Source: Deltaproteobacteria bacterium
GTDB taxonomy: Bacteria > JAMCPX01
Assembly (NCBI GenBank): GCA_023381995.1
Contig: JAMCVD010000024.1
Coordinates: forward strand, 1-48,396
Direction of reading: 5' to 3'
DNA length: 48,396 nt
The position numbers and the translations under genes were made by a program. The notes beneath the pieces were generated by a model. It was given only the letters and a program-made list of their open reading frames with translations, was not told where the DNA came from and did not search any database. The first letter of the stretch is position 1. Every line of letters starts with the position of its first letter. Below are positions 26,011-48,132 of the stretch, in pieces.

Positions 26011-26958
26011 TCAAAGGTTGATCTTTTCTTTGATCGTATAGACGGGATTGCTCATGGATTCGTGATAGAGACGTATAATCAATTCTGCGATCAGACCAAT
26101 CAGTATAAGCTCGAACCCTATGAGAAACAGGAATACGGCGAGCAGGAGCAGCGGGTTCCTGTAGGCGAAGACGTGGAGATGGAACTTTTCGTAGAGGACG
26201 TAGACGCCGATAAAAAAGCTCGCGAGCATGAACATGAGGCCGCTGCCTCCGAAGAGGTGCAGGGGCCTCGTAGAAAAATCTGCGAGAAACTTCACCGTGA
26301 GCAGGTCGAGCAGCACCTTTATCGTCTTCATAAAGCCATAATGGGTCTTGCCGTAGTGCCTCGGTCTGTGGTGTGTCTGTATCTCCGCAATGGATGCCCC
26401 CATCCCAGCCGCATACACGGGTATGAACCTGTGCATCTCCCCGTACAGCTTTATGCCTTTGAGGATGTCTGCCTTGTAGGCTTTCAGGGTGCACCCGAAG
26501 TCATGCAGCCTGACCCCTGTAACGATGCCGATAATATGATTTGCGACCATGGAAGGCAGCGTCCTGACCAGGAATTTGTCCCTCCTGGGCTTGCGCCATC
26601 CGCTCACAAGGTCGTAGCCGCTCTCTATCAGGGCAATCATGGCTGGTATATCGTGGGGGTCGTTCTGGAGATCGGCGTCCATCGTAACTATGATGCGGCC
26701 TCCGGCGTTTTCGATGCCTGCCGACATCGCCGGCGTCTGCCCATAGTTCCTCCTGAAGCTCACCACTTTAACGGTGCGGTCGTCTGACGCGATTCGTTTC
26801 AGGTTCTTCAGGGTCGCATCCGTGCTGCCGTCGTCGACGAATACGATCTCCGCATCGTAGTGGTGCAGGCCGATGACGTCCTTGAGCTCTGCATAGAGCT
26901 TCCCAACGGATTCGGCTTCATTAAAAACGGGTATTATAACGGACAGATCTACGCCCAT
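26011..26958 (-). CDS. GT2 glycosyltransferase, DPM1/ArnC-like
   Basis: This is a 315-aa membrane-anchored family 2 glycosyltransferase. The GT-A domain shows LSVIIPVFNEAESVGKLYAEL, VFVDDGSTD, the metal-binding DADLQNDP, and the DFGCTLKAYKADI and HRFIPVYAAGMG motifs of polyprenyl-phosphate mannosyl/glucosyl synthases. Two C-terminal transmembrane helices follow (about 233-255 and 266-292). It probably makes a polyprenyl-phosphate sugar, which is the donor type used by GT-C enzymes. Two GT-C genes lie close by, an attractive functional link (inference). It is transcribed with asnB. Confidence 0.93.
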   Translation of the reverse strand: MGVDLSVIIPVFNEAESVGKLYAELKDVIGLHHYDAEIVFVDDGSTDATLKNLKRIASDDRTVKVVSFRRNYGQTPAMSAGIENAGGRIIVTMDADLQNDPHDIPAMIALIESGYDLVSGWRKPRRDKFLVRTLPSMVANHIIGIVTGVRLHDFGCTLKAYKADILKGIKLYGEMHRFIPVYAAGMGASIAEIQTHHRPRHYGKTHYGFMKTIKVLLDLLTVKFLADFSTRPLHLFGGSGLMFMLASFFIGVYVLYEKFHLHVFAYRNPLLLLAVFLFLIGFELILIGLIAELIIRLYHESMSNPVYTIKEKINL

Positions 26959-27282: not shown

Positions 27283-28722
27283 TCACATGATGGAGGAGTA
27301 GTTATTGGTCCAGTTGGCGGGACCGCCCGTGTGGAGATAGAAAACGATGGACGGCAGCAGTCCGACGTCGAAGAACTTCTTTACGTAGTACAGCTTGTTG
27401 AGAGCCATTAATCTGAAGAGGGGCGTCAGCAGCGCCGAGCTGTACAGCCTTGGCATAATCCTGTAGAAACTGTCGTGTTTGACGATGAACGGGAACGTAT
27501 AGAACAGGTTCTCGAACTGGACCGCGTACGGCGTCCTATATATCGGCTTTTCCCTGTCGAAAAAGCTTTCGAGGCCCATTGTATAGTCGTGTTCAAGGTA
27601 CCCGTGATCGATGGCGAACTCGTAAAGCTTTGTGCCCTCTATGGGGACCGACATGGTTATTACCGGATTGTCCGGCCTGATCTTCCTGTTGAGCTCTATG
27701 GTCTCGAACACATTTTCGAGGGTCTCGCCGGGGTTCCCTATCATGTTGAACGTCGCCAGTCGTATCCCATGCTTCTTTATCAGCATACACTTGTCGATGA
27801 TCTCCTGGTCGGATATCCTCTTGTTGAGTACATTCACCCTGATGTCGCTGTTGCCGCTTTCGATGCCAACGGCGATGCCCGTGCATCCGGCGTGGGCGAG
27901 CGACTTTATGGTGCTCTCGTCGAGCTTGTTTACCATGCTGTTGAACGTGAACGGGACCGCTATCCTTTCCGCGTATCGGCCGCAGAACTCTGTCGTCCAT
28001 CCCGCGTCGAAGGTGAACAGGTCGTCGGAGAAGTGGACGTGCTTGAGCGGGTACCTGTTCATGATATATTCTATCTCTTCCAGCATGCGGCTTACGCTTT
28101 TCTTCCTTACGAAGCTGCCCCTGCCTTCCGTGATCTTCTTCAGGGAGGGATTAAAGCAATAGGAGCAGACATTCGGGCACCCCCTGCCGCTGATGAACCT
28201 TTTTAAGGGGAGGTTTTTTATGACCCTGTATTTATAATAGACCTCTCTGTCCGGGAGGGGCATTTCGTCCAAGTCCGTAAGCGGGCCCATGGGATTCTTA
28301 TAGATATCTCCCTTGTACTTTACCCACATGCTGCGGACGGTGGTGATGTCGCCGTCCGAACCGAGCCTCTGTAGGAACTCTGGTATTGCATAGTCCACTT
28401 CACCCCTGAGAATGGCATCGACGCCCTCGTTGTCTATGACACCCGGGAAAAAAGTGGGATGGGTGCCTGTAAGTATGCATACGGCCTTCGGCAGGGCGGA
28501 TTTTATCTTTCTGGCAGTGGATATGCCCCATTCGGGCTTTGTGATGGAGGTGGGTAGTATTACTATCGACGGCTCGTAAGAGCCCGCAGACTTCAGCAGG
28601 TTGTTTTCTTCCCTTTCGATCAGTACATCGTAGTCATGGCCTTGTTTTCTGAGCACTCCTGCCAGCTCGGTAAGGGCGAGTGACTCGTTGATGGCGTTGT
28701 CCTGTACAAATAAGACCTTCAT
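27283..28722 (-). CDS. B12-binding-domain radical SAM protein 1
   Basis: This 479-aa protein has an N-terminal cobalamin-binding-like Rossmann domain (KVLFVQDNAI start, GTHPTFFPGVID, ILRGEVDYAI). A radical SAM domain follows with the cluster motif CPNVCSYC (Cys182, 186, 189), then GIAVGIESGNSDIRV and FNMIGNPGETLENVFETIE, typical of this superfamily. The N-terminal domain lacks the DxHxxG loop used for His coordination of cobalt, as in many B12-dependent radical SAM enzymes. Such enzymes methylate or rearrange unactivated carbons. It lies downstream of the first GT-C/SLBB gene on the same strand. Substrate unknown; lipid, sugar and peptide are all possible. Confidence 0.92.
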   Translation of the reverse strand: MKVLFVQDNAINESLALTELAGVLRKQGHDYDVLIEREENNLLKSAGSYEPSIVILPTSITKPEWGISTARKIKSALPKAVCILTGTHPTFFPGVIDNEGVDAILRGEVDYAIPEFLQRLGSDGDITTVRSMWVKYKGDIYKNPMGPLTDLDEMPLPDREVYYKYRVIKNLPLKRFISGRGCPNVCSYCFNPSLKKITEGRGSFVRKKSVSRMLEEIEYIMNRYPLKHVHFSDDLFTFDAGWTTEFCGRYAERIAVPFTFNSMVNKLDESTIKSLAHAGCTGIAVGIESGNSDIRVNVLNKRISDQEIIDKCMLIKKHGIRLATFNMIGNPGETLENVFETIELNRKIRPDNPVITMSVPIEGTKLYEFAIDHGYLEHDYTMGLESFFDREKPIYRTPYAVQFENLFYTFPFIVKHDSFYRIMPRLYSSALLTPLFRLMALNKLYYVKKFFDVGLLPSIVFYLHTGGPANWTNNYSSIM

Positions 28723-28870: not shown

Positions 28871-31696
28871 TTATCTGGCAGCACCAGAATTCAGGCTATG
28901 TACCATTTTTTTGATGTACCGGATGTCCGGGTGCTCGTTGCCTTTCGGTACATACACGATGTCGTCGTCCTCCAGGGATGGGTTGTAGACAGCGTCCTTT
29001 GTCTGTATGTAGTTAATAAAGTCTGTCGTTATCAGCCTGTCGTGCCTCAGGATGACGATGCTATTGAGGTCCGATACGGGCAGCAGACCGCCTGTCAGGG
29101 TAAAGGTGTCTGCCAGCCTCGCATGCTCGGGCAGGATAAAGCTCCCGGTATATCTCACGGCGCCGATGACGGTCACCGAGATGGTCTTATGGGGGATGCC
29201 GGGCACATAAATGATGTCGTTGTTTTGGAGCAACGGGTTGTAGGCCTGGTCCTTCGTCAGCACATACCGCATAAGGTCTACTTTTATCGGCCTGTCATGC
29301 CTCAGGATGACGATGCTGTCGTAGTCCGATGCGGGCAGGTGACCCCCGGTCATGGTGAAGGCATTCGCGAGCCTCGCACCGTCGTTCAGGGTAAAGCTTC
29401 TCGAATATTTTACGGCACCGAAGACGGTCACCCTGATGGTCTTGTGGGGGGTGCCGGGCACATAAACGATGTCGTTGTCCCTTAGCAAGGGATTGTCCCC
29501 CGGAGCACGGGTCTTCAGATAGCGCAGCAGATTCACCCTTATAAGCTTGTTTCCCCTTATGATGATGACCTGCTTGAGGGCCGACGCCACCACCGGCCCT
29601 TCGGCCTTTACCAGTGCATACATCAATCTTGTCCCCATATCAACACTCAGACTTCTATTATACCTTGCCGTATCTACTATTGTTACTTTTATAGGTAGCT
29701 GCGGGGTGATTGCCGAGATAGATTTATAGCGATGCCCTGTCTCGTGACCCGGGGATTTTCCTGATTTCATGGACTCCGGCCTCTTATAAGATTTATAAAA
29801 ATCTTCGATCAGCTTCCTATTTTGGGGAGAGTCGAGAGGGGCCGTCTCTCCCGGTACGTAGATCACATCGTGCTCATCAAGAAGTGGATTGGACTGTCGA
29901 TCGCCTGTTTGAAAATATCTGGTCAAGTCTATGACGGTTTGCAATCCATTCCTGATTATGATCACGCTATTCAGTGCGGCTTTTTGTTGAATCCCGCCTG
30001 CGTATTTCAGAAGCCCTAAAAGGGTGGGGGTGGTCCTGTCTTTATCTGTAAGAAGGGTGAATACACCCGTCTTTCTGGTGGCGCCGATAAGGAGGACGTC
30101 TACGAAGGATGCTTGAGGAGAAGTTGTAAATTTTAACAAAGAGAAGCTGCCTACTTTCAGGATGGTATCATAGTGCTCCAATATAAGTCTTTCCAATGAG
30201 TTGGGATGGAACTCCATATTATTCATTTTATAGAGCTGCATAAGTAGTGGGTAAGACCAGTTGTGTGTTATTATGTATTCATTATGCGAAGACTTGAGCC
30301 TGCTTAAGACATCCTCAAGCATGGACCGGGGGGCACTGATCTTTGTGCCGAAGCTTGGGACCAAGTCATATGCTGTGGGATTGTTTATACCCATAACCGG
30401 GTATAACAGAGGGGCAAACGGATAGGCGAGTACATTCCTATCGCTTCCTATCAGCTTGTCTGCCTGGGTGATGAACTCTACAAGCGTCGATGCACCATAT
30501 CTGTCGAAAGACCACAGGTGCTCATGATCGAGCTCAAAATGATATGCCTTCGTATCAATCTTTTTGACATTATTGTAGATAATCACGCACACCGCCGCAG
30601 CACCTGCTAAAGCCACTATATTGAATAATCCCTTGATCAGTTTACAGATCAGTTTCCAGCTCACCCTTTTTAAGAGCTCCTCAAGTCTCCAAAGGACATA
30701 AACGGAGAATACGATACTCAGTCCCATATTGATATATGTCGTCGTCGGAACGACCAGCATAATACGATGGGTAACGTTCAGAAACAGGATGATGTTGCCG
30801 ATGAAGAGCGATGACTCCTGGGGTAATGCGTTTCTTTGTTTGAACAGGAAGAAGAGGCTGAGTACGAACGTGGAGATAAAGAGCAGCCTTAGCGGCTCGA
30901 ATATATATCTTATGGATGCGAACGGTCCCATGTAGAACATGTTGATTTTAGGATACAGGACGAGCAGTATGTGTTGGTCCCTTAAGAAGGGGACGAACGC
31001 CCCGTGTACTGCCAGCAGCAGCAGCATAATGGTAAGCGGTACCGCTGCACCCGACAGGAACTTGAGTGCTGCAAGTTTTTTCTGTCGCCCGATCGACGAT
31101 GTGTCGCTTTGCGATGTGCCGGATACATGTTTTAAATAGATGAGGGGGGTGAGCAGTGCTATCGTATACACTCCCGTCGACTGCAACAGGACAGCGGTCG
31201 ATCCGGCAAGCAGGCCCGATAGATACACGTACGTGTCCCTGCCGCTGTGCATAAATCTATTAAGGGCAATGAGGGTCAGAAAGAGTGTTATGGTCGAGGT
31301 GAGATAATGGTTCAGGGTGAACCACTCCGTGTATCCGAAGGTCAGGAAGAGCAGCGGTGCAAGGATCGCATACCATCTTTTTATGACAAGCCTTGATATA
31401 TGGTACAGCAGGAGATTTATTGTGCACGACAGTACAATCGTGACCTGGTTGGACACGGCGATGCTGTAGCCGAATAGTTTATACAGCCCCGCCATAATAT
31501 AGAAGTCGCCCGGGAAAAACACCTCGAAGAAGTCTCTGTAGATCATCTGTCCGTGCAAGATCCTCCATGCCCCGATCATCGTGCCCTCGTCGTTTGCCGG
31601 GTTGGTGGCGAACATATAATGGCTGTATAGGGACAGATAGGTATAAGAAATAAAGGCGACTATCAGGTAGGGGAATGATTTTTTAAGGTATTTCAT
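28871..31696 (-). CDS. GT-C membrane glycosyltransferase fused to four SLBB-like repeats
   Basis: This is a 941-aa chimera. Residues 1-380 form a polytopic membrane domain with about ten helices and the ArnT/PMT-like first periplasmic loop ATNPANDEGTMIGAWRIL...GQMIYRDFFE, which holds an acidic pair (Asp-Glu) in the usual catalytic place. After a soluble linker domain (380-525) come four SLBB-type repeats (about 530-615, 669-747, 753-832, 837-917). Each has the pattern GAVRYTGSF, RLADTFTLTGG, IVILRHDR, NPLL..NDIIYVPG known from Wza-type polysaccharide export proteins. I start at ATG 31696 (GGAAGAG upstream) rather than the track's TTG at 31714. A second, shorter homologue is at 36480. I know of no established family with this architecture. 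Confidence 0.85.
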   Translation of the reverse strand: MKYLKKSFPYLIVAFISYTYLSLYSHYMFATNPANDEGTMIGAWRILHGQMIYRDFFEVFFPGDFYIMAGLYKLFGYSIAVSNQVTIVLSCTINLLLYHISRLVIKRWYAILAPLLFLTFGYTEWFTLNHYLTSTITLFLTLIALNRFMHSGRDTYVYLSGLLAGSTAVLLQSTGVYTIALLTPLIYLKHVSGTSQSDTSSIGRQKKLAALKFLSGAAVPLTIMLLLLAVHGAFVPFLRDQHILLVLYPKINMFYMGPFASIRYIFEPLRLLFISTFVLSLFFLFKQRNALPQESSLFIGNIILFLNVTHRIMLVVPTTTYINMGLSIVFSVYVLWRLEELLKRVSWKLICKLIKGLFNIVALAGAAAVCVIIYNNVKKIDTKAYHFELDHEHLWSFDRYGASTLVEFITQADKLIGSDRNVLAYPFAPLLYPVMGINNPTAYDLVPSFGTKISAPRSMLEDVLSRLKSSHNEYIITHNWSYPLLMQLYKMNNMEFHPNSLERLILEHYDTILKVGSFSLLKFTTSPQASFVDVLLIGATRKTGVFTLLTDKDRTTPTLLGLLKYAGGIQQKAALNSVIIIRNGLQTVIDLTRYFQTGDRQSNPLLDEHDVIYVPGETAPLDSPQNRKLIEDFYKSYKRPESMKSGKSPGHETGHRYKSISAITPQLPIKVTIVDTARYNRSLSVDMGTRLMYALVKAEGPVVASALKQVIIIRGNKLIRVNLLRYLKTRAPGDNPLLRDNDIVYVPGTPHKTIRVTVFGAVKYSRSFTLNDGARLANAFTMTGGHLPASDYDSIVILRHDRPIKVDLMRYVLTKDQAYNPLLQNNDIIYVPGIPHKTISVTVIGAVRYTGSFILPEHARLADTFTLTGGLLPVSDLNSIVILRHDRLITTDFINYIQTKDAVYNPSLEDDDIVYVPKGNEHPDIRYIKKMVHSLNSGAAR

Positions 31697-32082
31697 GTAT
31701 CGACTCTTCCACAATGTGTAATCATATCGGCATAGAAAGGGTAGTATAGAATTTATTTATGGGCAAGACAAATGATGGTGGATAAATAAAAAACCATTTG
31801 ACATTCCTTTCGGGATTCTGTACCCTTCATGAAGAGAGGTGAGAATATGTGGCGGCCAGCACCGAGATAAATAAAATTTGGTATGTTCTTGTTGTCTGAA
31901 GGGAAACAGTATGCGGGGGATAGTCCGGGGTTAGAGAGTGTGTTTTAGCCTTCGAGTGTGGAAATATTTTTATCTGCACTGTCAGAAAGTGTAAGATATC
32001 CACGGGGGTATATATTACACAACAGCATGAAATGAATGAATTACCCCAAAACAAAGTTAAGAAGGCACATAAATATTGAGAG
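31697..32082. other. Divergent intergenic region, no gene
   Basis: This gap separates the minus-strand GT-C/SLBB gene from the plus-strand radical SAM genes and should hold both promoters. A TTGACA at 31798-31803 is followed 17 bp later by a weak TACCCT, a possible plus-strand promoter. The region is A+T-rich with no clear hairpin, riboswitch or tRNA. I looked for a cobalamin riboswitch because of the B12-binding enzymes and did not see one. Confidence 0.5.
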
Positions 32083-33666
32083 ATGAGCATGTCACGCATA
32101 TTACCCACTAACGAGAACGGGGATCTTGACTGTCTTCTCATACATACTCCAAAGTTTAACCATTACGTACACCCTTTCAACAAGGTACAGTTCGTTAATC
32201 TCATGCCCATGGGTCTCCTGTTTATGGCAGACCTGTTAAAAAGGCATGGATTCAAGAGTAGGGTCTTACACCTCGGCATCGAAAAATTATTTACAAAGGA
32301 CTTTTCCTTAAGGGAATATCTCCTTCTTACGAAGCCAAAGGTCGTTGGGATTACGCTTCATTGGCACCATCAGTCTTTTGACGCTATAGAAGTTGCCAGA
32401 GAAGTAAAAAAAGTCTTGCCCGATACCTTCTTGGTCCTGGGGGGGCTGACAGCAAGTTTTTTTAAAAACGAGATACTGGAGAGCTTCGGATTCATCGATG
32501 GGGTCATATCCGGAGACGGCGAGGGCCCACTTCTAAAAATTGTTGAGCATATCGTTAAGAATAACGGGGACATAACTTTGATCCCCAACCTCGCCCGCCG
32601 AAGCGACGGCAGTATTGTACAGAATACCTGTAGTTACATAACGACCAAAGAGGTGTTGGACAGTGCTTCTTTTAGTAATTACGATCTTATGGAAAACTAC
32701 GATTTTTACCCGCAGTTATTTTTCTTTAACTTCAACACCAGCCCGGCACTTAACAAGATCGTTTATAAAAGTTCCCTCGTTGCGTCCATGTATCTTCCGA
32801 TCGGCAAGGGCTGCACGGCAAATTGTAGCTTTTGCGGAGGGGGCTACGATGCAAACGGGATCATAAATGGCAAGGTGCGCATTGTGTTGAGGTCGCCGGA
32901 TAAGATAATAGAAAACATAAAAGATGGTATACGGTGGGGCTTTAAGAGCTTCAACACCGACTTCGATCTCCCAGGGCAGAACTCAAGGACATTTTTTTTA
33001 GAGCTTTTTAAAACGATAAGGAACAATAATCTCAAAATAACGTACAACTTCAACTCGTACTCGCTGCCGTCTGTCGATTTCGTGGATGAGTTCAGTGCGA
33101 CGTTTTCCAGGGATTCACAAATAATAATCTCACCGGAAAGCGGTTCTGAAAAGCTGAGAAAGATCCATAAAGGCTATTTTTATACCAACGCTGAGCTTTT
33201 GCAGACGTTGAAATATATGGAGGGAAAAGGGGTAAACGCGGGGGTCTATTTTGCCGGAGGCCTGCCGCTGGAGACGGAAGAAGACGTTAAGGAGACAATC
33301 GCATTACAGAAGCATCTGAGAAGGTATAAGAATATCAAACAGCTCATTACAGTTCCATTGGAGTTGGATCCTGCGTCGCCTATGTTTTTGTGTCCAGATA
33401 AGTTCAATATAATCTTAACAAGAAAGACCTTTCTTGACTATTATAAAGGTCATGCAAGGCTCTGGTTCGACAGAGGATATTATCTGTCAGGTTCTTCGGA
33501 AAAAGAGATGATGAAGACCCAATGCAAGAATTATTGCTTCTTAAATCCGGTTTTTGGAAAATACCTCTGTTATGTGTCCCATACCGCCACTAAATTCGAG
33601 CCCAATTTCTCCATAAGGTATGTTGACACTTTCCTTTCTTTTATTTTAAGGAAGCTGTTTAAGTAG
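32083..33666 (+). CDS. B12-binding-domain radical SAM protein 2, with extra C-terminal cysteines
   Basis: This is a 527-aa protein. The B12-binding-like domain occupies about 1-170 (LLIHTPKF start, PMGLLFMADLLKRHGF, LVLGGLTASFF, GVISGDGEGPL). The radical SAM core begins with CTANCSFC (Cys244, 248, 251), followed by FNTDFDLPG, IIISPESGSEKLR and YFAGGLPLETEEDVKETI. Near the C-terminus Cys481-x3-Cys485 and Cys496 form an extra motif absent from its three paralogues here and might bind a second iron-sulphur cluster. The start is uncertain: ATG at 32083 or 32089. It leads a plus-strand series of three such genes and a GT-C/SLBB gene. Confidence 0.9.
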   Translation: MSMSRILPTNENGDLDCLLIHTPKFNHYVHPFNKVQFVNLMPMGLLFMADLLKRHGFKSRVLHLGIEKLFTKDFSLREYLLLTKPKVVGITLHWHHQSFDAIEVAREVKKVLPDTFLVLGGLTASFFKNEILESFGFIDGVISGDGEGPLLKIVEHIVKNNGDITLIPNLARRSDGSIVQNTCSYITTKEVLDSASFSNYDLMENYDFYPQLFFFNFNTSPALNKIVYKSSLVASMYLPIGKGCTANCSFCGGGYDANGIINGKVRIVLRSPDKIIENIKDGIRWGFKSFNTDFDLPGQNSRTFFLELFKTIRNNNLKITYNFNSYSLPSVDFVDEFSATFSRDSQIIISPESGSEKLRKIHKGYFYTNAELLQTLKYMEGKGVNAGVYFAGGLPLETEEDVKETIALQKHLRRYKNIKQLITVPLELDPASPMFLCPDKFNIILTRKTFLDYYKGHARLWFDRGYYLSGSSEKEMMKTQCKNYCFLNPVFGKYLCYVSHTATKFEPNFSIRYVDTFLSFILRKLFK

Positions 33667-33735: not shown

Positions 33736-35157
33736 ATGAAAATACTGTTTATTATACCCCCATTTTCATCTGGCGGCGGCTGGCTGGTCCCGCATATCGG
33801 CATAGCCTATATGGCTGCCGTGCTAAAGCAAAAAGGATACGATGTTACTATTGCAGATGCGATCGCAGAAAGACTTTCCGGTCCAGGAATAGTAGACAGT
33901 ATAAAAAAAGTGAAGCCGGACATTGTTGGCCTAACTGCCACGACACAGCAGATATATACTGCATCGATAATTGCAAATGAAGTTAAGGGCATATCTCCTG
34001 AAATTAAAACAATCATAGGCGGCTGCCATGTGTCCCCTTTGCCGGAACAGACATTGAGAGAGTTTAGCAGCTTTGATTATGCTGTCATCGGAGAAGGTGA
34101 ATTGGTCCTGCCGGAGCTTCTCAGGGCGATATCCGACGGTAACGACGGCGCGCTTGTGAATATAAAAGGGATAGCCTATAGAACAGACGATAAAGTTGTT
34201 GTAAACCCTCAGGGATCGTATGTCGATGTGAACAGCCTGCCAATGCCGGACTTTGACGGCTTTGATTTGAGTTTGTACAGGCCTTTTTATACCTTACCAA
34301 TCCACGGGTATAGAGAGCTGCCAATACTAACATCAAGAGGGTGTCCCTACGATTGTGTTTTTTGCTTCAGGACAAAGGGCAAGATTGCAAGGTATAGGAC
34401 GGTACAGTCGGTTATTAATGAAGTAAAAAGAGATATAGAGACATACCACGCAAATCAAATATCGTTTATTGACGACACGTTCACCACGAATATGAAACGT
34501 ACGGAGATGATCTGTGATGAATTGATGAAAGCGGGTATTCATAAAAAAATAGAATGGAGCTGTGGAACAAGGGCCGATGTCGTGAGTGGGCCGTTACTGA
34601 GTAAGATGAAGCAGGCCGGGTGCAGAGTGATCTCTTATGGGATAGAATCGGGGGATCAAAAGATTCTCGATAAGGCTACAAAGGGGCTAAAAATAGAGGA
34701 GATAAGAGAGGCGATACGATTGACCAAGCATGCTGGTATCGATGTGTATGCGAATTTTATCATCGGCTTGCCCTATGACACCGTCGACTCAATTAATAAA
34801 ACAATTGACTTTGCAATGGGACTCGATATTGATGCCGCATCATTCGCAATCCTGACACCATTTCCGGGAACGGGGCTTATCGATATGATTAAAAATGGCA
34901 GCGGTGGATTGAAAATGATTTCAAGCGACTGGAGGGATTATCATAAACATCTTGGCAGATCACTCGAACTTGATGCGGTCGATAGAAAGAAGCTCGAAAA
35001 GCTTCAGAGGAAGGCGTACATGAAATTTTATCTGAGACCGAAACGGTTTATAAATATGTTCAAGATCGTAGGACTGGGTACGATAATGTCTTATGCACTT
35101 CAACGGGTCTACATTAAGAAATCCGGACCTTCTCGCATAAACGATCATAGCGTTTAG
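33736..35157 (+). CDS. B12-binding-domain radical SAM protein 3
   Basis: This 473-aa protein is the most conventional of the four paralogues. The N-terminal cobalamin-binding-like domain shows ILFIIPPFSSGGG, PHIGIAYMAAVLKQKGYDV, TIIGGCHVSPLPEQTL and YAVIGEGELVLPEL. The radical SAM domain shows CPYDCVFC (Cys203, 207, 210), FIDDTFTTNMKR, ISYGIESGDQKIL and NFIIGLPYDTVDSI. Proteins of this form include methyltransferases acting on sp3 carbons (as in hopanoid, antibiotic and bacteriochlorophyll pathways). It lies 69 bp after paralogue 2 and 29 bp before paralogue 4, so one operon is likely. The ATG has no clear RBS. Substrate unknown. Confidence 0.93.
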   Translation: MKILFIIPPFSSGGGWLVPHIGIAYMAAVLKQKGYDVTIADAIAERLSGPGIVDSIKKVKPDIVGLTATTQQIYTASIIANEVKGISPEIKTIIGGCHVSPLPEQTLREFSSFDYAVIGEGELVLPELLRAISDGNDGALVNIKGIAYRTDDKVVVNPQGSYVDVNSLPMPDFDGFDLSLYRPFYTLPIHGYRELPILTSRGCPYDCVFCFRTKGKIARYRTVQSVINEVKRDIETYHANQISFIDDTFTTNMKRTEMICDELMKAGIHKKIEWSCGTRADVVSGPLLSKMKQAGCRVISYGIESGDQKILDKATKGLKIEEIREAIRLTKHAGIDVYANFIIGLPYDTVDSINKTIDFAMGLDIDAASFAILTPFPGTGLIDMIKNGSGGLKMISSDWRDYHKHLGRSLELDAVDRKKLEKLQRKAYMKFYLRPKRFINMFKIVGLGTIMSYALQRVYIKKSGPSRINDHSV

Positions 35158-36479: not shown

Positions 36480-38399
36480 ATGACAAGAAGAGAATCGCAA
36501 GCCAATCTCCCTCAATCAAAGCTGATTAAGATAATATCGTTATACGTTATAGTTGCCGCTGTTTCTCTTGTATACCTCTCTCATTACACCCATTATCTTT
36601 TTGCCACCGATGTCGCAAACGACGAAGGTGTGATGGCAGGGGCGTGGCGCATGGTCAATGGCCAGGTGATATACAGGGATTTTTTCGAGTTCTTTGCACC
36701 GGGGAACTTCTTTTTGCTGGCACTCGTCTACAAGCTCTTCGGCTACAGTCTTGTTATTACAAACAAGGCCTTGATCGTCATTGACGTTATCTGTAATATT
36801 CTGCTTTTTCAAATCTCGTATATGGTATTGAGGCGCTGGTACGCCATTGTCCCTCCACTGCTGTTCCTTATCGTCGGTTTCCCGAGCTGGTTTATCCTGA
36901 GTCATTACTGGACGACGTCTGTTACGCTCTTTGCGGCGCTCGTATGGCTTATCATGTATCTGGAGAGGTTGACCGAAGGATATAGATCACCTGCCATCTA
37001 TCTCTTCTTGTCGGGCTTGTTCGTGGGGCTGACAGGCATTTTCCTGCAGTCAGCCGGTGTTTATACGGCGCTCGTACTCCTGATCGTGCTCTATCTCAGA
37101 ACAAAGAAAATCCCCGGTAGGGTTAAAAGGATTTTAACATTCGGTATCGGTATCTCCCTCCCCGTGTTGACTTTCGCACTCTATCTTTTTCTGAACAACG
37201 CCTTCGTTCCATTCATCCATACCCAGATAAGCCTGCTTGAGATGTATCCATCTGCTGCATATTTCTTTTCGAAGCCTCTTCTATCTCTTTATAACATCTT
37301 GACCCCGGTAAAGCTGATGTTTCTCACCTCTTTCGTCGGGAGCCTCATTCTTATAGCCTTTAAAAGGAATACGTCAGACACAGAATTTGTTTTTTTTGCG
37401 GGCAATATATTATTCTTTCTTGATACATGGCACTGGCTGACCATGAGCAATAACGTCCTGGATCCAAGTCATACGACATCCGGCATGAGTTTTGTATTTA
37501 TTATGTATCTCGTGGTCTTATTCGTTGAATATATAAAAAACCATTGTTCCGGATCCATGCACAGACTTGTAGATGTACTTACCCATGGTGCATTTTTGAC
37601 CGTTACGGTAATAATAATGGTGCTTGCTTATAAAGGCATGTCCGATATAAGGACAAAGGCGTTCCATTTCGTGCTTCACGACACCGCCTATTGGACATAC
37701 GATGGAAAGGGAGCGAATGACCTCGTTAAATTTAGCAGCGATGCGGAGAAAATGCTGGGCAATGATAAGGACGTATTTGTTTATCCCCTTGCGTCCACGT
37801 TGTATACCCTGTTGGGCCTTAAGAACACTACGGACTATGATATAATCGTAAGCTTCGGCCAGATTGCGAGGGCACCATCGGAGATCTCGAAAGATGTGAT
37901 ACATCAACTGGTATCGTCCAAAACAAAGTTCATCATAACCTATCAATGGTCGTACAGGTTCCTTGTTATATGGTCGCAGAGGAACGGTGTTATATTTAAG
38001 CCGAATATTCTGGAACGGTTTCTATGGGACAATTATCATGATGTATTGCACGTGGGCATGTACACGCTGTGGGAATTAAATACATTGGTACCGAAGGACG
38101 TACTTTCTGAGTGCCCGATGCGTATTTCCAGAGAGCTCGTTTCGGTGTCTGTATCCGGGGCGACAACGCGTACCGGGAGCTTCGATGTGAACGTGGGTGC
38201 AAGGCTGATGGATGCCCTCAGCATGGCAGGGGGGCCGCTTCCCGTATCCGATTTGAGACGGGTCATCATCCTGAGACACGGCAGGACAATACAAACGGAC
38301 TTTTTGAGGTATCTGCAGACAAGGGATCCGGTCTATAACCCGCTGTTAAAGGACAATGATGCTATCTATGTGCCCAGAAGCGCTGGTTCCGGGAAATGA
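36480..38399 (+). CDS. GT-C membrane glycosyltransferase fused to one SLBB-like domain
   Basis: This 639-aa protein is a clear homologue of the 941-aa protein encoded on the other strand. The first periplasmic loop reads ATDVANDEGVMAGAWRMV...GQVIYRDFFEFFAPG, about ten transmembrane helices extend to about 385, and the same soluble linker follows (AYWTYDGKGANDLVKF, YQWSYRF). A single SLBB-type domain occupies 553-632 (SGATTRTGSFDVNVGARLMDALSMAGG, NPLLKDNDAIYVP). The acidic loop suggests a polyprenyl-phosphate-sugar-dependent GT-C enzyme acting on the periplasmic side. The C-terminal SLBB would then also be periplasmic and could contact a polysaccharide export complex. It starts 3 bp after radical SAM protein 4. 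Confidence 0.87.
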   Translation: MTRRESQANLPQSKLIKIISLYVIVAAVSLVYLSHYTHYLFATDVANDEGVMAGAWRMVNGQVIYRDFFEFFAPGNFFLLALVYKLFGYSLVITNKALIVIDVICNILLFQISYMVLRRWYAIVPPLLFLIVGFPSWFILSHYWTTSVTLFAALVWLIMYLERLTEGYRSPAIYLFLSGLFVGLTGIFLQSAGVYTALVLLIVLYLRTKKIPGRVKRILTFGIGISLPVLTFALYLFLNNAFVPFIHTQISLLEMYPSAAYFFSKPLLSLYNILTPVKLMFLTSFVGSLILIAFKRNTSDTEFVFFAGNILFFLDTWHWLTMSNNVLDPSHTTSGMSFVFIMYLVVLFVEYIKNHCSGSMHRLVDVLTHGAFLTVTVIIMVLAYKGMSDIRTKAFHFVLHDTAYWTYDGKGANDLVKFSSDAEKMLGNDKDVFVYPLASTLYTLLGLKNTTDYDIIVSFGQIARAPSEISKDVIHQLVSSKTKFIITYQWSYRFLVIWSQRNGVIFKPNILERFLWDNYHDVLHVGMYTLWELNTLVPKDVLSECPMRISRELVSVSVSGATTRTGSFDVNVGARLMDALSMAGGPLPVSDLRRVIILRHGRTIQTDFLRYLQTRDPVYNPLLKDNDAIYVPRSAGSGK

Positions 38400-41434: not shown

Positions 41435-42124
41435 ATGAAGATGAAGAGGTATCTGAGATGTGTCGGCGTGGTCGGCCTGATATCGATAGCAGGCTGTATA
41501 AATGTAAGCGAAGATATCGTCCTGAATCTGGGCGGTTCCGGCAGCCTTCACCTTGTCTATTCCATACCGGAGGCACTGATGAAAGATCAGCAGGGTCTGC
41601 ACAATGCCATGACCCAGACAGGCATCATGTTCCCTCTGACGAAGAAGGACTTTGACAATCAATTCGCGGGACTCGAGGGGGTCCACGTCAGGGGTGTAAA
41701 GACATACACCGACAACGGGTACTACGAAATCGACGGCAGGGTAAAGTTCGCGGACATCAATGCATTAAAGATGAGCAATGTAAGGTTCGTCCTCAGGAAG
41801 AGCGGTACGGACAGTGAACTGGTGATATCGCTCATTAACTCCATGAATAAAAGACAGGCGCCCGGCCAGGACAAGGCGAGGCCCCGTGCGGGCATAAACT
41901 ACGAGAATATACTGAAGGGCTCATTGACCAATTACGGCATAAAGATAGAGGTGAGCTTTCCGACTAAGGTACTGTCCGCAAACGGGAAGATACAGGGCAG
42001 GGACGTCAAATGGGATGTGCCGATGAACGTGTTCCTCAACAGCGAGGCGAAGGAAATGGACCTCCATGCCGTATACTCAGGCAAGCCGACCATTCTCGAC
42101 CGGATAAAGGACTTTTTCAGATAA
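41435..42124 (+). CDS. Predicted lipoprotein, LppM-like
   Basis: This 229-aa protein has a short basic N-terminus and lipobox ISIAGC (about 17-22). The mature part begins CINVSEDIVLNLGGSGSLHLVYSIPE, the pattern of LppM-like proteins (a beta-strand-rich domain with a GsG-hhh-hh-P motif), and ends near KPTILDRIKDFF. Function is not known. No strong RBS is visible; ATG at 41435 or 41441 are both possible. The TAA overlaps the ATG of rmlA by one base, so it is cotranscribed with the nucleotide-sugar genes even though its role may differ. Confidence 0.75.
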   Translation: MKMKRYLRCVGVVGLISIAGCINVSEDIVLNLGGSGSLHLVYSIPEALMKDQQGLHNAMTQTGIMFPLTKKDFDNQFAGLEGVHVRGVKTYTDNGYYEIDGRVKFADINALKMSNVRFVLRKSGTDSELVISLINSMNKRQAPGQDKARPRAGINYENILKGSLTNYGIKIEVSFPTKVLSANGKIQGRDVKWDVPMNVFLNSEAKEMDLHAVYSGKPTILDRIKDFFR

Positions 42125-43188
42125 TGAAGGCGCTTATCCTCAGCGGCGGTAAGGGTACGAGGCTGAGACCAATCACACACACCAGCGCAAAACAGCTTCT
42201 ACCCGTAGCAAACAAGCCCATACTCTTCTATGCGATAGAGGCCATCAGGGACTCGGGTATACGGGACATCGGAATCATCGTGGGGGACACTGCCGAAGAA
42301 GTCAGGAATGCCGTCTCGGACGGCAGGAGATTCGGCGTAGAGGTGACCTATATACAGCAGGACGAGCCGCTCGGCCTGGCCCATGCCGTGCTCATAGCGA
42401 GGGACTTTCTCAAAGACGAGCCCTTTGTCATGTATCTGGGCGATAATCTTATAAAGGGCGGCATTACAGGGCTGGTCGAGCAGTTCAAGCAGCAGTCTCC
42501 CAATTCCCAGATCCTCCTTGCCCATGTCAGGAACCCGAGCCAGTTCGGCGTTGCAGAGCTCCGGGACTCGCAGGTCGTACGACTCGAAGAGAAGCCCGCG
42601 AGCCCGAAGAGCGATCTCGCCCTTGTCGGCGTCTATATGTTCGATAAAAATATCCATGCGGCGGTCAGGGCCATACGGCCATCGAAGAGAGGGGAGCTCG
42701 AGATCACGGACGCAATACAATGGCTCATAGACAACGACCTCAGGGTCCTGCCCCACATCGTGACAGGGTGGTGGAAGGACACCGGCAGACTGGAAGACAT
42801 GCTCGAGGCAAACAGGATGATGCTCGACACCTATGAGACGGACGTCAGGGGCGACGTCGACGAGCATTCGAGGGTGGAATTCAAGGTCGTTGTAGAGAAG
42901 GGCGCGGTCGTCAGGCATTCCACGATCAGGGGGCCTGCCGCGATAGGCAGCGGCGCGAAGATCATAAATTCGTACATCGGGCCGTTTACCTCGATATCCT
43001 CGGACACGCAGATCATAAACAGCGAGATAGAGCACAGCATAATCCTTGAGAACTGCCTTATAGAGGACGTCGGTATCAAGATAGAGGACAGCCTCGTAGG
43101 CAGGAATGCCGAGGTAAAAAGGCTCAATGAGAAGCCCAGGGTCTACAGGCTGCTCCTCGGCGACAACAGCAAGGTGGGGCTGCCTTGA
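42124..43188 (+). CDS. rmlA: Glucose-1-phosphate thymidylyltransferase, long form
   Basis: This enzyme makes dTDP-glucose from dTTP and glucose-1-phosphate. At 354 aa it is the long form with an added C-terminal left-handed beta-helix (HSTIRGPAAIGSGAKIINSYIGPFTSI). The N-terminal nucleotidyltransferase shows LILSGGKGTRLRPIT, LPVANKPILFYAIE, QDEPLGLAHAV, MYLGDNLI and GWWKDTGRLEDMLEA. The track's ORF starts at 42010 inside the lipoprotein gene; ATG 42124 begins the family sequence. It leads the rml/ugd/uxs run. Long-form members vary in specificity (some are UTP-dependent), but the rmlB-rmlC-rmlD neighbours support dTDP-glucose. Confidence 0.93.
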   Translation: MKALILSGGKGTRLRPITHTSAKQLLPVANKPILFYAIEAIRDSGIRDIGIIVGDTAEEVRNAVSDGRRFGVEVTYIQQDEPLGLAHAVLIARDFLKDEPFVMYLGDNLIKGGITGLVEQFKQQSPNSQILLAHVRNPSQFGVAELRDSQVVRLEEKPASPKSDLALVGVYMFDKNIHAAVRAIRPSKRGELEITDAIQWLIDNDLRVLPHIVTGWWKDTGRLEDMLEANRMMLDTYETDVRGDVDEHSRVEFKVVVEKGAVVRHSTIRGPAAIGSGAKIINSYIGPFTSISSDTQIINSEIEHSIILENCLIEDVGIKIEDSLVGRNAEVKRLNEKPRVYRLLLGDNSKVGLP

Positions 43189-43258
43189 CGGGCAGGTGCC
43201 GGGTATCCTCGCTTCTGCACAGCAGGGCCGTACGAAAGGGCTTATGGAGGAACGGATA

Positions 43259-43714
43259 ATGATAGACGGTGTAAAGGTCAAAAACCTCAAGGTAATATGC
43301 GACGAGCGGGGCAGGCTCATGGAGATCCTCCGCTCGGACGACGATGTCTTTCAAAAGTTCGGTCAGGTCTACATGACCACGGCGTACCCCGGCGTCGTAA
43401 AGGCATGGCACTACCATAAACATCAGACGGACAACATGACCGTGGTCAGGGGCATGATGAAGATCGTGCTGTACGACGGCAGGGAAGGCTCCAGGACGAA
43501 GGGCGAGGTCAACCAGTTCTTTGCAGGCGAGCACAGCCCGATACTCGTCTCCATACCGGAGATGGTATACCACGGGTTCAAGTGTATCAGCGAGACGGAG
43601 GCCATCGTCATAAACATACCGACCACTGTATTCAACTACGGGCAGCCGGACGAGTACCGGGTCGACCCCCACAAAAACGATATACCGTACGACTGGTCCC
43701 GAAAAGACGGCTAA
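43259..43714 (+). CDS. rmlC: dTDP-4-dehydrorhamnose 3,5-epimerase-like cupin
   Basis: This 151-aa RmlC-type cupin epimerises C3 and C5 of dTDP-4-keto-6-deoxyglucose. It opens with VKVKNLKVICDERGRLMEILR, has the active-site strand GVVKAWHYHKHQTDNMTVVRG with the conserved His, then MMKIVLYDGREGS and PEMVYHGFKCIS. The C-terminal region FNYGQPDEYRVDPHKNDIPYDW matches this branch. GGAGG lies 8 nt before the ATG at 43259, so I prefer it to the in-frame ATG at 43244 and to the longer track ORF. It is shorter than canonical RmlC (about 180 aa), as in related deep-branching epimerases, so a pure 3- or 5-epimerase is possible. Confidence 0.88.
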   Translation: MIDGVKVKNLKVICDERGRLMEILRSDDDVFQKFGQVYMTTAYPGVVKAWHYHKHQTDNMTVVRGMMKIVLYDGREGSRTKGEVNQFFAGEHSPILVSIPEMVYHGFKCISETEAIVINIPTTVFNYGQPDEYRVDPHKNDIPYDWSRKDG

Positions 43715-43752
43715 CCCGGGAAATGCATGTGCAAGATAGAGAAGTTTGTGTA

Positions 43753-43905
43753 ATGAGTGACAAGCCTGCGTCGAACAGAGATATTCTTCGAATATCGGCG
43801 AAAACTACAACGATGGTTTGTGCATATAAACTTACAGAGGGCTATAACATCCCTTTTGACAGAAAGCTTATAGAGCTTAGGTGGATCGCAGGATTGAACG
43901 AATGA
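43753..43905 (+). CDS. Small hypothetical ORF between rmlC and rmlB
   Basis: A 50-codon ORF (MSDKPASNRDILRISAKTTT...IAGLNE) fills the only sizeable gap (234 bp) in the nucleotide-sugar operon. The RBS is weak (GAGAAG, 9 nt upstream) and no family is recognised. The gap is A+T-richer than its surroundings, so this may be the remnant of a displaced gene or simply spacer. Confidence 0.25.
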   Translation: MSDKPASNRDILRISAKTTTMVCAYKLTEGYNIPFDRKLIELRWIAGLNE

Positions 43906-43948
43906 GCAAACTTCCCTATTGCATTTTTCGGGCTTGGAGAGACGGTCA

Positions 43949-44977
43949 ATGAAGATACTCGTTACAGGCGGGGCCGGCTTCATAGGCTCCAATTTCATAC
44001 ATTACATGCTCGAGCACCATCCGGATTATGATATTATAAACCTCGATAAGCTTACCTACGCAGGCAACCTCGAGAACCTCAGGGACATAGGTCCGGGCAA
44101 GCGCTATAGGTTTGAGAGGGGGGACATAGCCGATGCAGACCTCGTGCGCGGTATCATGGATCAGGGCATAGATGCCGTCATAAACTTTGCCGCTGAGTCC
44201 CACGTGGACAGGAGCATACTCGAACCCGCCTCTTTTATAAAGGCGAACATACTCGGGACCCACGTGCTGCTCGATACCGCACGGGAGAGGCGCATATCGA
44301 GGTTTGTCCAGATCTCCACGGACGAGGTGTACGGATCGCTCGGGGCGACGGGGAGGTTCACGGAGGAGACATGCCTCCGTCCCAACAGCCCCTACTCCGC
44401 GAGCAAGGCGTCGGCCGATATGATTGCGCTCGCTTACCACAGGACCTTCGGTATGCCAGTCCTGATAACGAGGACGTCAAACAACTACGGGCCCTACCAG
44501 TTCCCGGAAAAGCTCCTTCCTCTCGCGATTACGAACCTCATGGAGGACAGGTCCGTCCCCATATACGGAGACGGGCTGAACGTCAGAGACTGGATCTTCG
44601 TAATGGACAACGCGGAGGCCATAGACATGGTCCTGCATAAGGGAGAAGACGGCGAGATATACAATATCGGTGCAGGCCACGAGAGCACGAACATATCGTT
44701 GGTAAGTAGCGTCCTCGGTATTATGGGGAAGCCCAGCTCCCTGATAGCTTATGTCAAGGACAGGCCGGGCCACGACAGGAGGTACGCCATCGATCCCTCG
44801 AAGATCATGACCGCACTTGGATGGTCCCCCCGTACCACGCTCCGCGACGGACTGAAGATGACCGTGGATTGGTATACGAAGAACGTGGGCTGGTGGAAAA
44901 GGGTCAGGTCGGGCGAGTATCTGGAATACTACGAAAAGAATTATTCTGCGAAAGGACTGAAGACGGACAGCCGATGA
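43949..44977 (+). CDS. rmlB: dTDP-glucose 4,6-dehydratase
   Basis: This short-chain dehydrogenase forms dTDP-4-keto-6-deoxyglucose. It is 342 aa, with the NAD-binding [54 protein letters not shown] (TDE catalytic motif), NSPYSASKASADM (YxxxK) and RTSNNYGPYQFPEKLLPL. These are diagnostic of RmlB rather than other 4,6-dehydratases. The ATG at 43949 follows GGAGAGACGG; the track start 30 bp upstream has no RBS. Its TGA overlaps the rmlD ATG. Confidence 0.96.
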   Translation: MKILVTGGAGFIGSNFIHYMLEHHPDYDIINLDKLTYAGNLENLRDIGPGKRYRFERGDIADADLVRGIMDQGIDAVINFAAESHVDRSILEPASFIKANILGTHVLLDTARERRISRFVQISTDEVYGSLGATGRFTEETCLRPNSPYSASKASADMIALAYHRTFGMPVLITRTSNNYGPYQFPEKLLPLAITNLMEDRSVPIYGDGLNVRDWIFVMDNAEAIDMVLHKGEDGEIYNIGAGHESTNISLVSSVLGIMGKPSSLIAYVKDRPGHDRRYAIDPSKIMTALGWSPRTTLRDGLKMTVDWYTKNVGWWKRVRSGEYLEYYEKNYSAKGLKTDSR

Positions 44978-45840
44978 CGGGCCTGAAGGTCTTTATTGCA
45001 GGCGCAGGCGGCATGCTTGCCAGCGCCCTGGAACGCCTGCTCGGTACGGCGTTCGAGCTGAGGGCGCTGACCGAGGCACAGCTCGATATAACGGACAGCG
45101 CGGCGGTCTTCGAGGCGATAAGAGAGGCCAGACCGGACGTGATCGTCAATGCAGCGGCATACACCGCTGTCGATCAGTGCGAGACCGAGCAGGGGAAGGC
45201 GATGCTCGTCAACGGTACCGCGGTCGGCCACCTCGCACGGGCCGCCGAGATGACGGGCGCGAGGATCATCCATTTCAGCACGGACTATATCTTCGACGGA
45301 GAGAAGGAAGGCCCCTACGGAGAGGACGACGTGCCCAATCCCGTCTCTGCATACGGCCGCTCCAAGCTTATGGGGGAGCGGGAACTCCTGCGCTTTACGC
45401 AGAACTATATCATCATACGTACGCAGTGGCTCTACGGCGAGAATGGCAAGAACTTCGTGGACACGATTGTCCGGCTTGCGCGGCAGCAGGACGAGCTGAA
45501 GGTCGTCGACGACCAGTACGGCAGCCCCACTTATACGATGGACCTCGCCCGTGTCGTCGGATGGTTTGCAGAGCACCGGGACATAAAGGGGCAGGTCTTT
45601 CATTTCTCGAACGAAGGGGTTGTATCGTGGTTCGGGTTTGCACGCGAGATACTGAAGCTTGCCGGCATCGGGACCAGGCTTGTCCCGGTCGATACCTCCG
45701 CGTTCCCGAGACCAGCGAAGAGGCCGCACAACTCTGCACTCGACAAGACGAAGATCAGGCGGCTCACAAATATTGACATACGACCGTGGTTTGATGCACT
45801 GTATGAGTACATGGAGAACACCGGAAGGGTAGCAAAGTAG
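44974..45840 (+). CDS. rmlD: dTDP-4-dehydrorhamnose reductase
   Basis: This enzyme carries out the last step of dTDP-L-rhamnose synthesis. It is 288 aa, an SDR with FIAGAGGMLASALERLL, PDVIVNAAAYTAVDQCE, IHFSTDYIFDGEKEGPYGEDD, YGRSKLMGERELL (YxxxK) and IIRTQWLYGENGKNFVDTI, all typical of RmlD. The correct start is the ATG at 44974, which overlaps the rmlB stop (ATGA); the track ORF begins 153 bp too early inside rmlB. Together with rmlA, rmlC and rmlB it completes the rhamnose pathway. Confidence 0.95.
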   Translation: MTGLKVFIAGAGGMLASALERLLGTAFELRALTEAQLDITDSAAVFEAIREARPDVIVNAAAYTAVDQCETEQGKAMLVNGTAVGHLARAAEMTGARIIHFSTDYIFDGEKEGPYGEDDVPNPVSAYGRSKLMGERELLRFTQNYIIIRTQWLYGENGKNFVDTIVRLARQQDELKVVDDQYGSPTYTMDLARVVGWFAEHRDIKGQVFHFSNEGVVSWFGFAREILKLAGIGTRLVPVDTSAFPRPAKRPHNSALDKTKIRRLTNIDIRPWFDALYEYMENTGRVAK

Positions 45841-45892
45841 GCCGATAGTGCGCAGTCCGGGTTAAGAGAAGCATGGAAATGTGGAGGCTTTT

Positions 45893-47200
45893 GTGAAACT
45901 CGCCATTATAGGAACGGGGTATGTCGGACTTGTCACGGGCACGTGCTTTGCCGACAGCGGTAACGACGTCGTGTGTATGGACATCGACAGGGAGAAGATC
46001 GATGCCCTGCGGAAGGGTGCTGTTCCCCTCTACGAGCCGGGCCTGAAGGAGCTCATCCATAAGAACCATAGAGAGGGTAGGCTCGGCTTTACGACGGACA
46101 TTGGGAAGGCCGTTCGGGGCTCGAAGATCATATTCATCGCCGTGGGGACCCCACCGGACAGGAACGGCGCCACCGATCTCAGGGGCATAAAGGCGGTCGC
46201 ACGGGACATCGGCAGACACATGAACGAGTACAAGATCGTCGTGACGAAGAGCACCGTCCCCGTGGGGACGTCCGACCTGATCCGCACGATCGTATCAAGG
46301 GAGACGGACATCCGGTTCGATATCGCATCGAACCCGGAGTTTTTGAAGGAGGGTGCGGCCATAGACGATTTTATGAAGCCCGACCGTGTTGTTATCGGCG
46401 TGGACAGCGAAAAGACGGGGGAGGTGCTGAGGTCGCTGTACGAGCCCTTCACCCGCACCGGGAACCCCATCATCGTTACGGACATACGCAGCTCGGAGAT
46501 GATAAAGTATGCGGCCAACGCCATGCTTGCGACGAAGATATCCTTCATAAACGAGTTCGCAAACCTGTGTACCGTCATGGGTGCGGACATCGACGACGTG
46601 AGGAAGGGCATAGGCTACGACAACCGCATAGGGCATCTCTTCCTGTTTCCCGGGGTGGGGTACGGGGGCTCCTGCTTTCCCAAGGACGTCAAGAGTATAA
46701 TCCACGATGCCGGACGGCACGGATATGCAATGGAGCTGCTCTCGGCAGTGGACCGTGTGAACGACAATCAGAAGGCGCTGATGCCGGCCGTGATAAAAAG
46801 ACATTTCAACGGTAGGCTCAGGGGGAGACGACTTGCGGTATGGGGGCTTGCGTTCAAGCCCAAGACGGACGATATACGGGAGGCGCCCTCCATCGTTATC
46901 ATCAATGCACTGCTGAAGGCCGGTGCCGGCATCATCGCGCACGACCCGGAGGCGATGCGGAACATAAAGGCCGTGTTCGGCAGGAAGATCGGGTACGCGG
47001 ACGATATGTACGGCGCCCTCAAGAACGTGGACGGACTTGTCCTCGTTACGGAGTGGAACGAGTACCGCAAGCCGGACCTTGACAGGATGGCGAGGCTGAT
47101 GAAGGGGAGGGTGGTCTTCGATGGCAGGAACATATTCGACAGACGCCAGCTCCTGGACGTGGGTTTTCAATACTACGGCATAGGAAGGCGGACGGGATGA
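45893..47200 (+). CDS. ugd: UDP-glucose 6-dehydrogenase
   Basis: This enzyme oxidises UDP-glucose to UDP-glucuronate with two NAD+. It is 435 aa, with N-terminal [82 protein letters not shown] and the catalytic Cys in [12 protein letters not shown]. The UDP-binding C-terminal domain shows [19 protein letters not shown]. Both candidate starts are GTG; the one at 45893 has GGAGG 5 nt upstream. Its stop overlaps the uxs start (ATGA), consistent with channelling of UDP-glucuronate to the next enzyme. Confidence 0.96.
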
Positions 47201-48132
47201 ACAGGAGGGTCGTGATAACGGGCGGCGCCGGCTTTATAGGCTCGCACCTGTGCGAATATTTTCTCGGGAAGTCGTACGACGTGCTCTGCGTGGACAATCT
47301 CTTGACCGGCTCCATGGACAACATATCGCACCTGTCCGGTGTAAAAGGGTTTGTCTTCATGAACCATGACATAACGAACGATCTGCAGGTGCCTGGCAGG
47401 GTCGACTATGTGCTCAACTTCGCCTCGCCGGCAAGCCCGGTCGACTACCTTGAGCACCCCATAGAGACGCTCAAGGTCGGCTCATTCGGCACGCACACGT
47501 CCATAGGCCTTGCAAAAGAAAAGGGTGCGAGGTACTTCCTCGCCTCGACCTCCGAGGTGTACGGCGACCCGCTCGTCAACCCACAGCCCGAGACATACTG
47601 GGGGAACGTCAACTCCGTGGGACCGCGCAGCGTCTATGACGAGGCCAAGCGATTCGCCGAGGCGATGACGATAGGGTACCATAGGTTCCATAAGGTGGAC
47701 GTAAGGATCGTAAGGATCTTCAACACGTACGGCCCGCGTATGCGTCTCAACGACGGCCGCGTTGTCCCCAATTTCGTTATGCAGGCGCTTCACAACGAGC
47801 CCCTGACCGTGTACGGCGACGGCTCGCAGACAAGGAGCTTCTGCTATGTCTCCGACCTTGTCGAAGGCATATACAGGCTCCTGGTGTCCGACTATGTTGG
47901 TCCGGTGAACCTCGGCAACCCGGAGGAATGGAAGATCATCGACTTTGCACGGCATATCATAGCTCTTTCCGGCTCCAGGAGCACGATCGCGTACAAGCCC
48001 TTGCCGCAGGATGATCCGAAGCAGAGGAGGCCGGACATAGCGCTCGCAAAGAGGCTGCTCGCCTGGGAACCGAAGGTCGGGCTGGACGAGGGCCTGAGAA
48101 AAACGATGGGCCATTTCCTGAAACAGAGATAA
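47197..48132 (+). CDS. uxs: UDP-glucuronate decarboxylase (UDP-xylose synthase)
   Basis: This SDR enzyme decarboxylates UDP-glucuronate to UDP-xylose. It is 311 aa, with [71 protein letters not shown] (YxxxK), [23 protein letters not shown] and [20 protein letters not shown]. The SPASP and GPRM signatures separate UXS from 4-epimerases. It is coupled to ugd by ATGA overlap. The pair would supply UDP-xylose to the local glycosyltransferases. Confidence 0.95.

Follow-up and report, generated by a model that had tools for sequence, protein, structure and literature searches.

A GT-C-type membrane protein fused to four SLBB domains, and its paralogues with related tails, in a deltaproteobacterial genome

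Membrane glycosyltransferases of the GT-C fold and SLBB domains are each known kinds of protein module, and their joining was not found described. PMT_2/ArnT-type GT-C enzymes (PF13231) combine a multi-helix membrane fold with an acidic first periplasmic loop and an alpha/beta part past the last helix, in the GT-C that founded family GT136 helix 11 is followed by a periplasmic domain (PMC11127046), and the three-component GtrA/GtrB/Gtr systems include a periplasmic GT-C (PMC11127046). SLBB units, for their part, are found in the Wza-type outer-membrane polysaccharide export (OPX) proteins, for which the portion of a published survey drawn on here recognises three classes, none of them described there with a membrane enzyme head (PMC9603273), and also in GfcC of the group 4 capsule, a small periplasmic protein with two Wza-like SLBB domains. 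Here we analyse W1, a protein in which both modules lie in one open reading frame (ORF), encoded on a contig of 48,396 nt from a deltaproteobacterial genome (JAMCVD010000024.1, assembly GCA_023381995.1); this whole stretch is referred to as the window.

W1 shares the three features named above with the PMT_2/ArnT-type enzymes but falls just under the Pfam cut-off of that family, of which no described member with an SLBB or Poly_export tail was found. As in the GtrA/GtrB/Gtr systems (PMC11127046), a periplasmic GT-C is accompanied by a nearby family 2 glycosyltransferase (GT2) that may make a polyprenyl-phosphate-sugar donor; unlike in those systems, the tail of W1 is of exporter type and common to several GT-Cs, and GtrA was not found in the 84%-complete genome. 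Like GfcC, W1 carries SLBB units without an export pore, but does so on a membrane enzyme. Its units have the Wza fold, and five of its paralogues place Poly_export before SLBB, which is the Class 3 layout (PMC9603273). In W1, by contrast, an 11-helix inner-membrane enzyme replaces the signal peptide or lipid anchor, and there is neither a Poly_export domain nor a Wza_C helix. Lacking Poly_export and bearing an inner-membrane enzyme head, W1 is, as judged from sequence and model, not an OPX protein.

The fused reading frame and its two folds

The W1 frame is open without a break from 28871 to 31714 on the reverse strand, giving 947 codons from an upstream TTG; position 31696 is the first in-frame ATG, from which the protein has 941 aa, and residue numbers refer throughout to the 947-residue frame. 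An earlier note, made from the sequence of the window, had described an ORF at 28871-31696 in which a ten-helix GT-C glycosyltransferase with an Asp-Glu first loop is followed by four SLBB-like repeats. The single uninterrupted frame with its in-frame ATG agrees with that description, and the union of a GT-C membrane glycosyltransferase head and four SLBB beta-grasp units in one ORF is confirmed. Since the window comes from a metagenome-assembled genome (MAG) in 134 contigs, two genes might have been joined by misassembly or by a frameshift, a danger that the earlier note had itself raised. A MAG of the same genus (GenBank JAJYLN010000001.1, 'bacterium isolate DBS2-1.bin78'), however, carries an identically fused and continuous W1 orthologue, and more complete fusions occur across three genomes, so that we regard an artefact as ruled out for practical purposes. 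Promoter and terminator matches did not rise above chance level.

An AlphaFold2 (AF2) model of the whole protein, built with 19 homologues, has a mean pLDDT of 81.5. Its best match in the PDB, as identified using Foldseek, is Wza (E ~1e-9), with GT-C enzymes next: OST/STT3, AftA, ArnT and PglB (E 2e-6 to 6e-4, probability 1.00). PMT_2 (PF13231) scores 23.5 bits over residues 70-192 of W1 against a Pfam cut-off of 26.1, and 33.0 bits, above that cut-off, in the fused same-genus orthologue. Read from the AF2 model together with the charge bias of the loops, the head contains 11 transmembrane helices rather than the ten counted previously, with 0.19-0.42 Lys+Arg per residue in cytoplasmic-assigned loops and 0-0.08 in periplasmic-assigned loops (16 homologues). 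Because of the 11 helices and these positive-inside counts, the tail is assigned to the periplasm, on the same side of the membrane as the first loop, which holds the Asp-Glu pair. This pair (D42-E43) had been correctly recognised in the earlier note; E43 is invariant in 8/8 complete fusions, and the alignment has DE or an acidic equivalent in every homologue that possesses the loop. The head of W1 has the fold and motif features of a GT-C, from which transferase activity is predicted.

Over the C-terminal half of W1, Pfam reports SLBB_2 with an E value of 4e-23 over three stretches and SLBB with an E value of 1.5e-13 (PF10531/PF22461; 81.8 and 50.8 bits against a cut-off of 27), and a hidden Markov model (HMM) built from the SLBB units of the W1 family finds exactly four units, the number proposed before. 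Units 3 and 4 stand in tandem at a spacing of 255 nt and are 75% identical in DNA. When the tail is modelled alone, its top Foldseek match is Wza (E 3.6e-13), and comparison of a single unit with the Wza entry 7xff yields 1.7 Å over 86 columns at 28% identity. GfcC is also among the matches, and ubiquitin chains, which have the beta-grasp fold in common, likewise rank high. A non-SLBB fold for the repeats is ruled out by the matches to Wza. Pfam finds no Poly_export domain (PF02563) in W1, which has an SLBB-like unit at the position where paralogues carry that domain. The short helix at the C-terminus was considered as an outer-membrane helix and rejected, being too short and too weakly amphipathic.

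A family of fusions with exchanged tails

Eight complete fusions and one fragment at a contig edge were found in three genomes of two genera: the genome of the window (G000), the same-genus MAG named above (G001), and a genome of a different genus within the family (G008). G000 encodes W1, W2, which also lies in the window, and a third fusion on contig C118 (851 aa); G001 has three on a single contig, one of which is the W1 orthologue (head 69% identical); and G008 has two complete fusions and the fragment. The layout given in the earlier note stands, although that note treated W1 alone and missed the multigene family, W2, the Poly_export paralogues and the exchange of tails. The number of SLBB units varies from one to four among the fusions, W2 having one unit at 38136-38378 and an apparent Poly_export remnant. 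In 5/8 complete fusions Poly_export lies between the head and the SLBB units, as in the exporter layout (three score above 28 bits, the cut-off, and two score ~25 bits), and these tails can be aligned to the Poly_export domains in the exporters of the same genome.

Since the Poly_export-SLBB layout of these five paralogues is the one that defines OPX proteins, the fusions might themselves be exporters, forming Poly_export-SLBB rings on the inner membrane with a GT-C base and replacing or extending a Wza-type channel. An outer-membrane helix is not required in Class 3 OPX proteins (PMC9603273). We nevertheless consider this improbable. Poly_export is not matched in W1 and is present in W2 only as an apparent remnant, prediction gives no segment that would span the outer membrane, and a ring carrying eight heads of 11 helices each would be bulky. 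Standard exporter genes, moreover, are present in the same genome: G000 has two OPX genes, on contigs C63 and C113, and in both cases the gene that follows encodes Wzz and P-loop ATPase domains.

The SLBB unit type of the fusions is also found at the end of a second family of polytopic membrane proteins, which contain a TPR-like part (798 aa at L010 in G000; 739 aa at L035:12419 in G001). The tailed TPR-type protein has no glycosyltransferase domain by Pfam and may be GT-C-like as judged from its layout. Each fusion-bearing genome also encodes one SLBB protein with a single N-terminal helix (361, 374 and 273 aa) and a middle region without a Pfam match, and these may be scaffolds that partner the fused enzymes. 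Untailed relatives are present for both polytopic families. One TPR-type relative, on contig C17 of G001, ends in a different unusual periplasmic tail, which by eye resembles a formylglycine-generating-enzyme/sulfatase-modifying domain and replaces both TPR and SLBB.

The neighbouring fusions G001_b and G001_c have heads that are 38.6% identical and terminal tandem SLBB tails that are 75.3% identical, and their sole nucleotide match, of 514 nt at 86.8%, spans exactly two SLBB units. As read from these alignments, the match is a domain-bounded gene-conversion tract, and tails are exchanged between heads. When the last SLBB units of 14 tailed proteins were compared under 5000 label permutations, their similarity tracked the genome of origin (3/5000 permutations as extreme) and did not track the type of head (1049/5000). 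In a tree of the heads the eight complete fusions fall in one clade (support 92/97) that includes one untailed member, U_G008_C54, and because two head types are common to both genera, the fusion probably predates the genus split.

Gene conversion of units that vary in number, together with a close paralogue (U_G008_C54) that is untailed and has no SLBB remnant downstream, would also be expected if SLBB units had been copied onto GT-C genes by recombination without any selected role. We give such neutral accretion little credence: the tail is in frame and its conserved positions are kept in eight complete proteins of two genera, and the fused heads form one clade with both genera, so that the tails were probably already present before the split and retained thereafter.

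Gene surroundings and distribution

The ArnC/GtrB-like GT2, which lies two genes from W1, is a candidate maker of the polyprenyl-phosphate-sugar donor (Table 1). In G000 a PMT_2 protein and a YfhO protein adjoin the tailed TPR-type protein, and an order of three genes, encoding an SLBB-tailed membrane protein, a membrane protein of 450-470 aa and another of 783-825 aa, recurs across the fusion-bearing genomes. Its match in G001 is by size and start, and in G008 it lies behind a single-helix SLBB protein; by Pfam, the middle gene is PMT_2-like in G000 and the last gene is YfhO in G000 and G008. None of the four B12-binding radical SAM proteins of the window exceeds an NCBIfam cut-off, the nearest families being HpnJ, BchE, TIGR04190 and rSAM_ladder_B12, and genes of this kind are also interleaved with GT-C-SLBB genes in L034, L035 and L056. 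The window further encodes a multihaem cytochrome c and a membrane H+-pyrophosphatase.

Table 1 Coordinates of the features discussed (window positions unless preceded by a locus label)
Feature	Position	Strand	Remarks
W1, GT-C-SLBB fusion protein	28871..31696	-	941 aa from ATG; ORF, Pfam, AF2
W1 GT-C head	30125..31696	-	Residues 7-530; 11 transmembrane helices and periplasmic alpha/beta subdomain; AF2, Foldseek, positive-inside counts
Asp-Glu D42-E43, first periplasmic loop	31586..31591	-	Presumed catalytic; alignment
SLBB unit 1	29849..30106	-	Residues 537-622; nearest unit to classical exporter SLBBs
SLBB unit 2	29453..29692	-	Residues 675-754; unit-level HMM
SLBB unit 3	29198..29443	-	Residues 758-839; Pfam and unit-level HMM
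SLBB unit 4	28943..29188	-	Residues 843-924; Pfam and unit-level HMM
Short C-terminal helix	28889..28924	-	Residues 931-942; AF2; similar end sequence in most tailed proteins
W2, second GT-C-SLBB fusion	36480..38399	+	639 aa; 40% head identity with W1
Membrane H+-pyrophosphatase	16453-18624	+	
Multihaem cytochrome c	19711-21210	-	MtrC/MtrF-like domain match
Asparagine-synthase-type amidotransferase	24103-26007		
GT2 glycosyltransferase, ArnC/GtrB-like	26011..26958	-	Best NCBIfam ArnC, 194.6 bits, residues 5-313, under cut-off
B12-binding radical SAM protein	27283..28722	-	Adjoins W1
Three B12-binding radical SAM genes	32083-33666, 33736-35157, 35187-36476	+	Between W1 and W2
Nucleotide-sugar genes	42010..48132	+	Nucleotidyl transferase, dTDP-sugar isomerase-like, GDP-mannose 4,6-dehydratase-like, UDP-glucose/GDP-mannose dehydrogenase, epimerase
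Recurring three-gene order	L010:141-6310, L035:12419-18361, L056:9071-13675		Three genomes, two genera
Single-helix SLBB proteins	L011:7155-8240, L034:11136-12260, L056:9071-9892	+, -, +	One or two SLBB units
Matching tail tracts of G001_b and G001_c	L035:7281-7794 and L035:11765-12278		~4.5 kb apart; genes otherwise unalignable
TPR-type relative with a different tail	L116:655-3015	-	G001, contig C17

The phylum as sampled comprises nine genomes of one family in four genera, and the fusion is present in two of these genera (three genomes). No further fusion was found in a sample of 386 genomes (377 outside the family) when two candidates from each genome were scored and the threshold was E <= 1e-25, and none in three other small phyla, where the searches had no positive control; over the ~400 sampled genomes, which are limited samples, no fusion lies outside one family. 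A contig scan with W1 as single query gave no match, and a scan with an alignment gave one same-genus record and distant GT-Cs that have no SLBB. GT-C relatives from named genomes outside the family have no in-frame SLBB, and a plasmid collection yielded matches to the SLBB tail only. With subscription papers and current protein databases outside the scope of the search, no paper joining GT-C and SLBB was found in the literature. Together with the OPX classes in the portion of the survey drawn on (PMC9603273), this supports, as far as tested, the earlier statement that no such family has been described.

Possible roles of the SLBB tail

With somewhat less than even confidence, we tentatively favour the view that W1 is a GT-C enzyme and that its SLBB tail serves for docking, as an exchangeable module which gathers periplasmic GT-Cs in a common assembly. 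The head of W1 would use a polyprenyl-phosphate-sugar donor to glycosylate a periplasmic acceptor, like ArnT or Gtr GT-Cs, and the tails would bind each other, the single-helix SLBB proteins or the cell's Poly_export-SLBB exporters in the manner of the stacked SLBBs of Wza, placing several periplasmic GT-Cs in one assembly along the glycan path. Similarity of the last SLBB unit by genome and not by head is expected of a shared interface of this kind. Docking is also supported by the surrounding genes, since these are glycan-making (the ArnC/GtrB-like GT2 and the nucleotide-sugar genes, with YfhO and PMT_2 neighbours elsewhere), and by the two OPX genes of G000, each followed by its Wzz/ATPase co-polymerase gene. 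The suggestion of the earlier note, that W1 may join periplasmic glycosyl transfer to a complex for export or polymerisation, is plausible as a hypothesis.

The tail could instead be a lectin-like acceptor-binding module that holds the growing glycan at the GT-C site, with no large assembly being formed. Such a role would suit a tail joined directly to a catalytic protein, in numbers of one to four units among paralogues, as is common in binding modules; it has an analogy in MIR or other accessory domains of protein mannosyltransferases, and two papers propose contact between SLBB domains and polysaccharide (PMC1796856, PMC9603273). However, heads that are only ~40% identical bear the same tail, as does a different polytopic family, and tails are alike by genome, whereas acceptor-specific binding would predict tails that track heads. 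Single-helix proteins, moreover, bear the module without any enzyme. Because the tails swap between unlike heads and sit on enzyme-free anchors, we think a protein interface common to the tails more likely than an acceptor-specific lectin, which we hold to be possible but doubtful. Export by the fusions themselves and neutral accretion are both less likely than either docking or glycan binding.

Several points weigh against docking. Sugar binding, as just cited, has been proposed for SLBB domains themselves. The classical OPX and co-polymerase genes lie on other contigs, with none in the window cluster, and the GtrA flippase was not found in G000 at its 84% completeness. The genome effect on tail similarity is due in part to G008 being another genus, and it is weak when only the two genomes of one genus are compared (54.8 vs 51.9%), while gene conversion between adjacent paralogues requires no common function. 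Finally, the partner, activity, donor and acceptor of W1 are all predicted.

A wider form of the docking proposal, which we advance as a speculative and rather unlikely one, is a modular complex for periplasmic glycan assembly. In it, GT-Cs, single-helix scaffolds and exporters would be joined via one shared, recombining SLBB tail, and a swap of heads or tails would exchange one enzyme for another. The way in which sugar addition in the periplasm is matched to polymerisation and export is poorly understood. The repeated natural fusion of GT-Cs with exporter domains, with tails swapped among them, offers a direct route to test the placement of enzymes at the export path, and the tails of the fusions provide fragments for pull-down and structural work. 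If the wider form of the proposal is correct, these proteins would tie periplasmic glycosylation covalently to the export machinery, in a way new to description.
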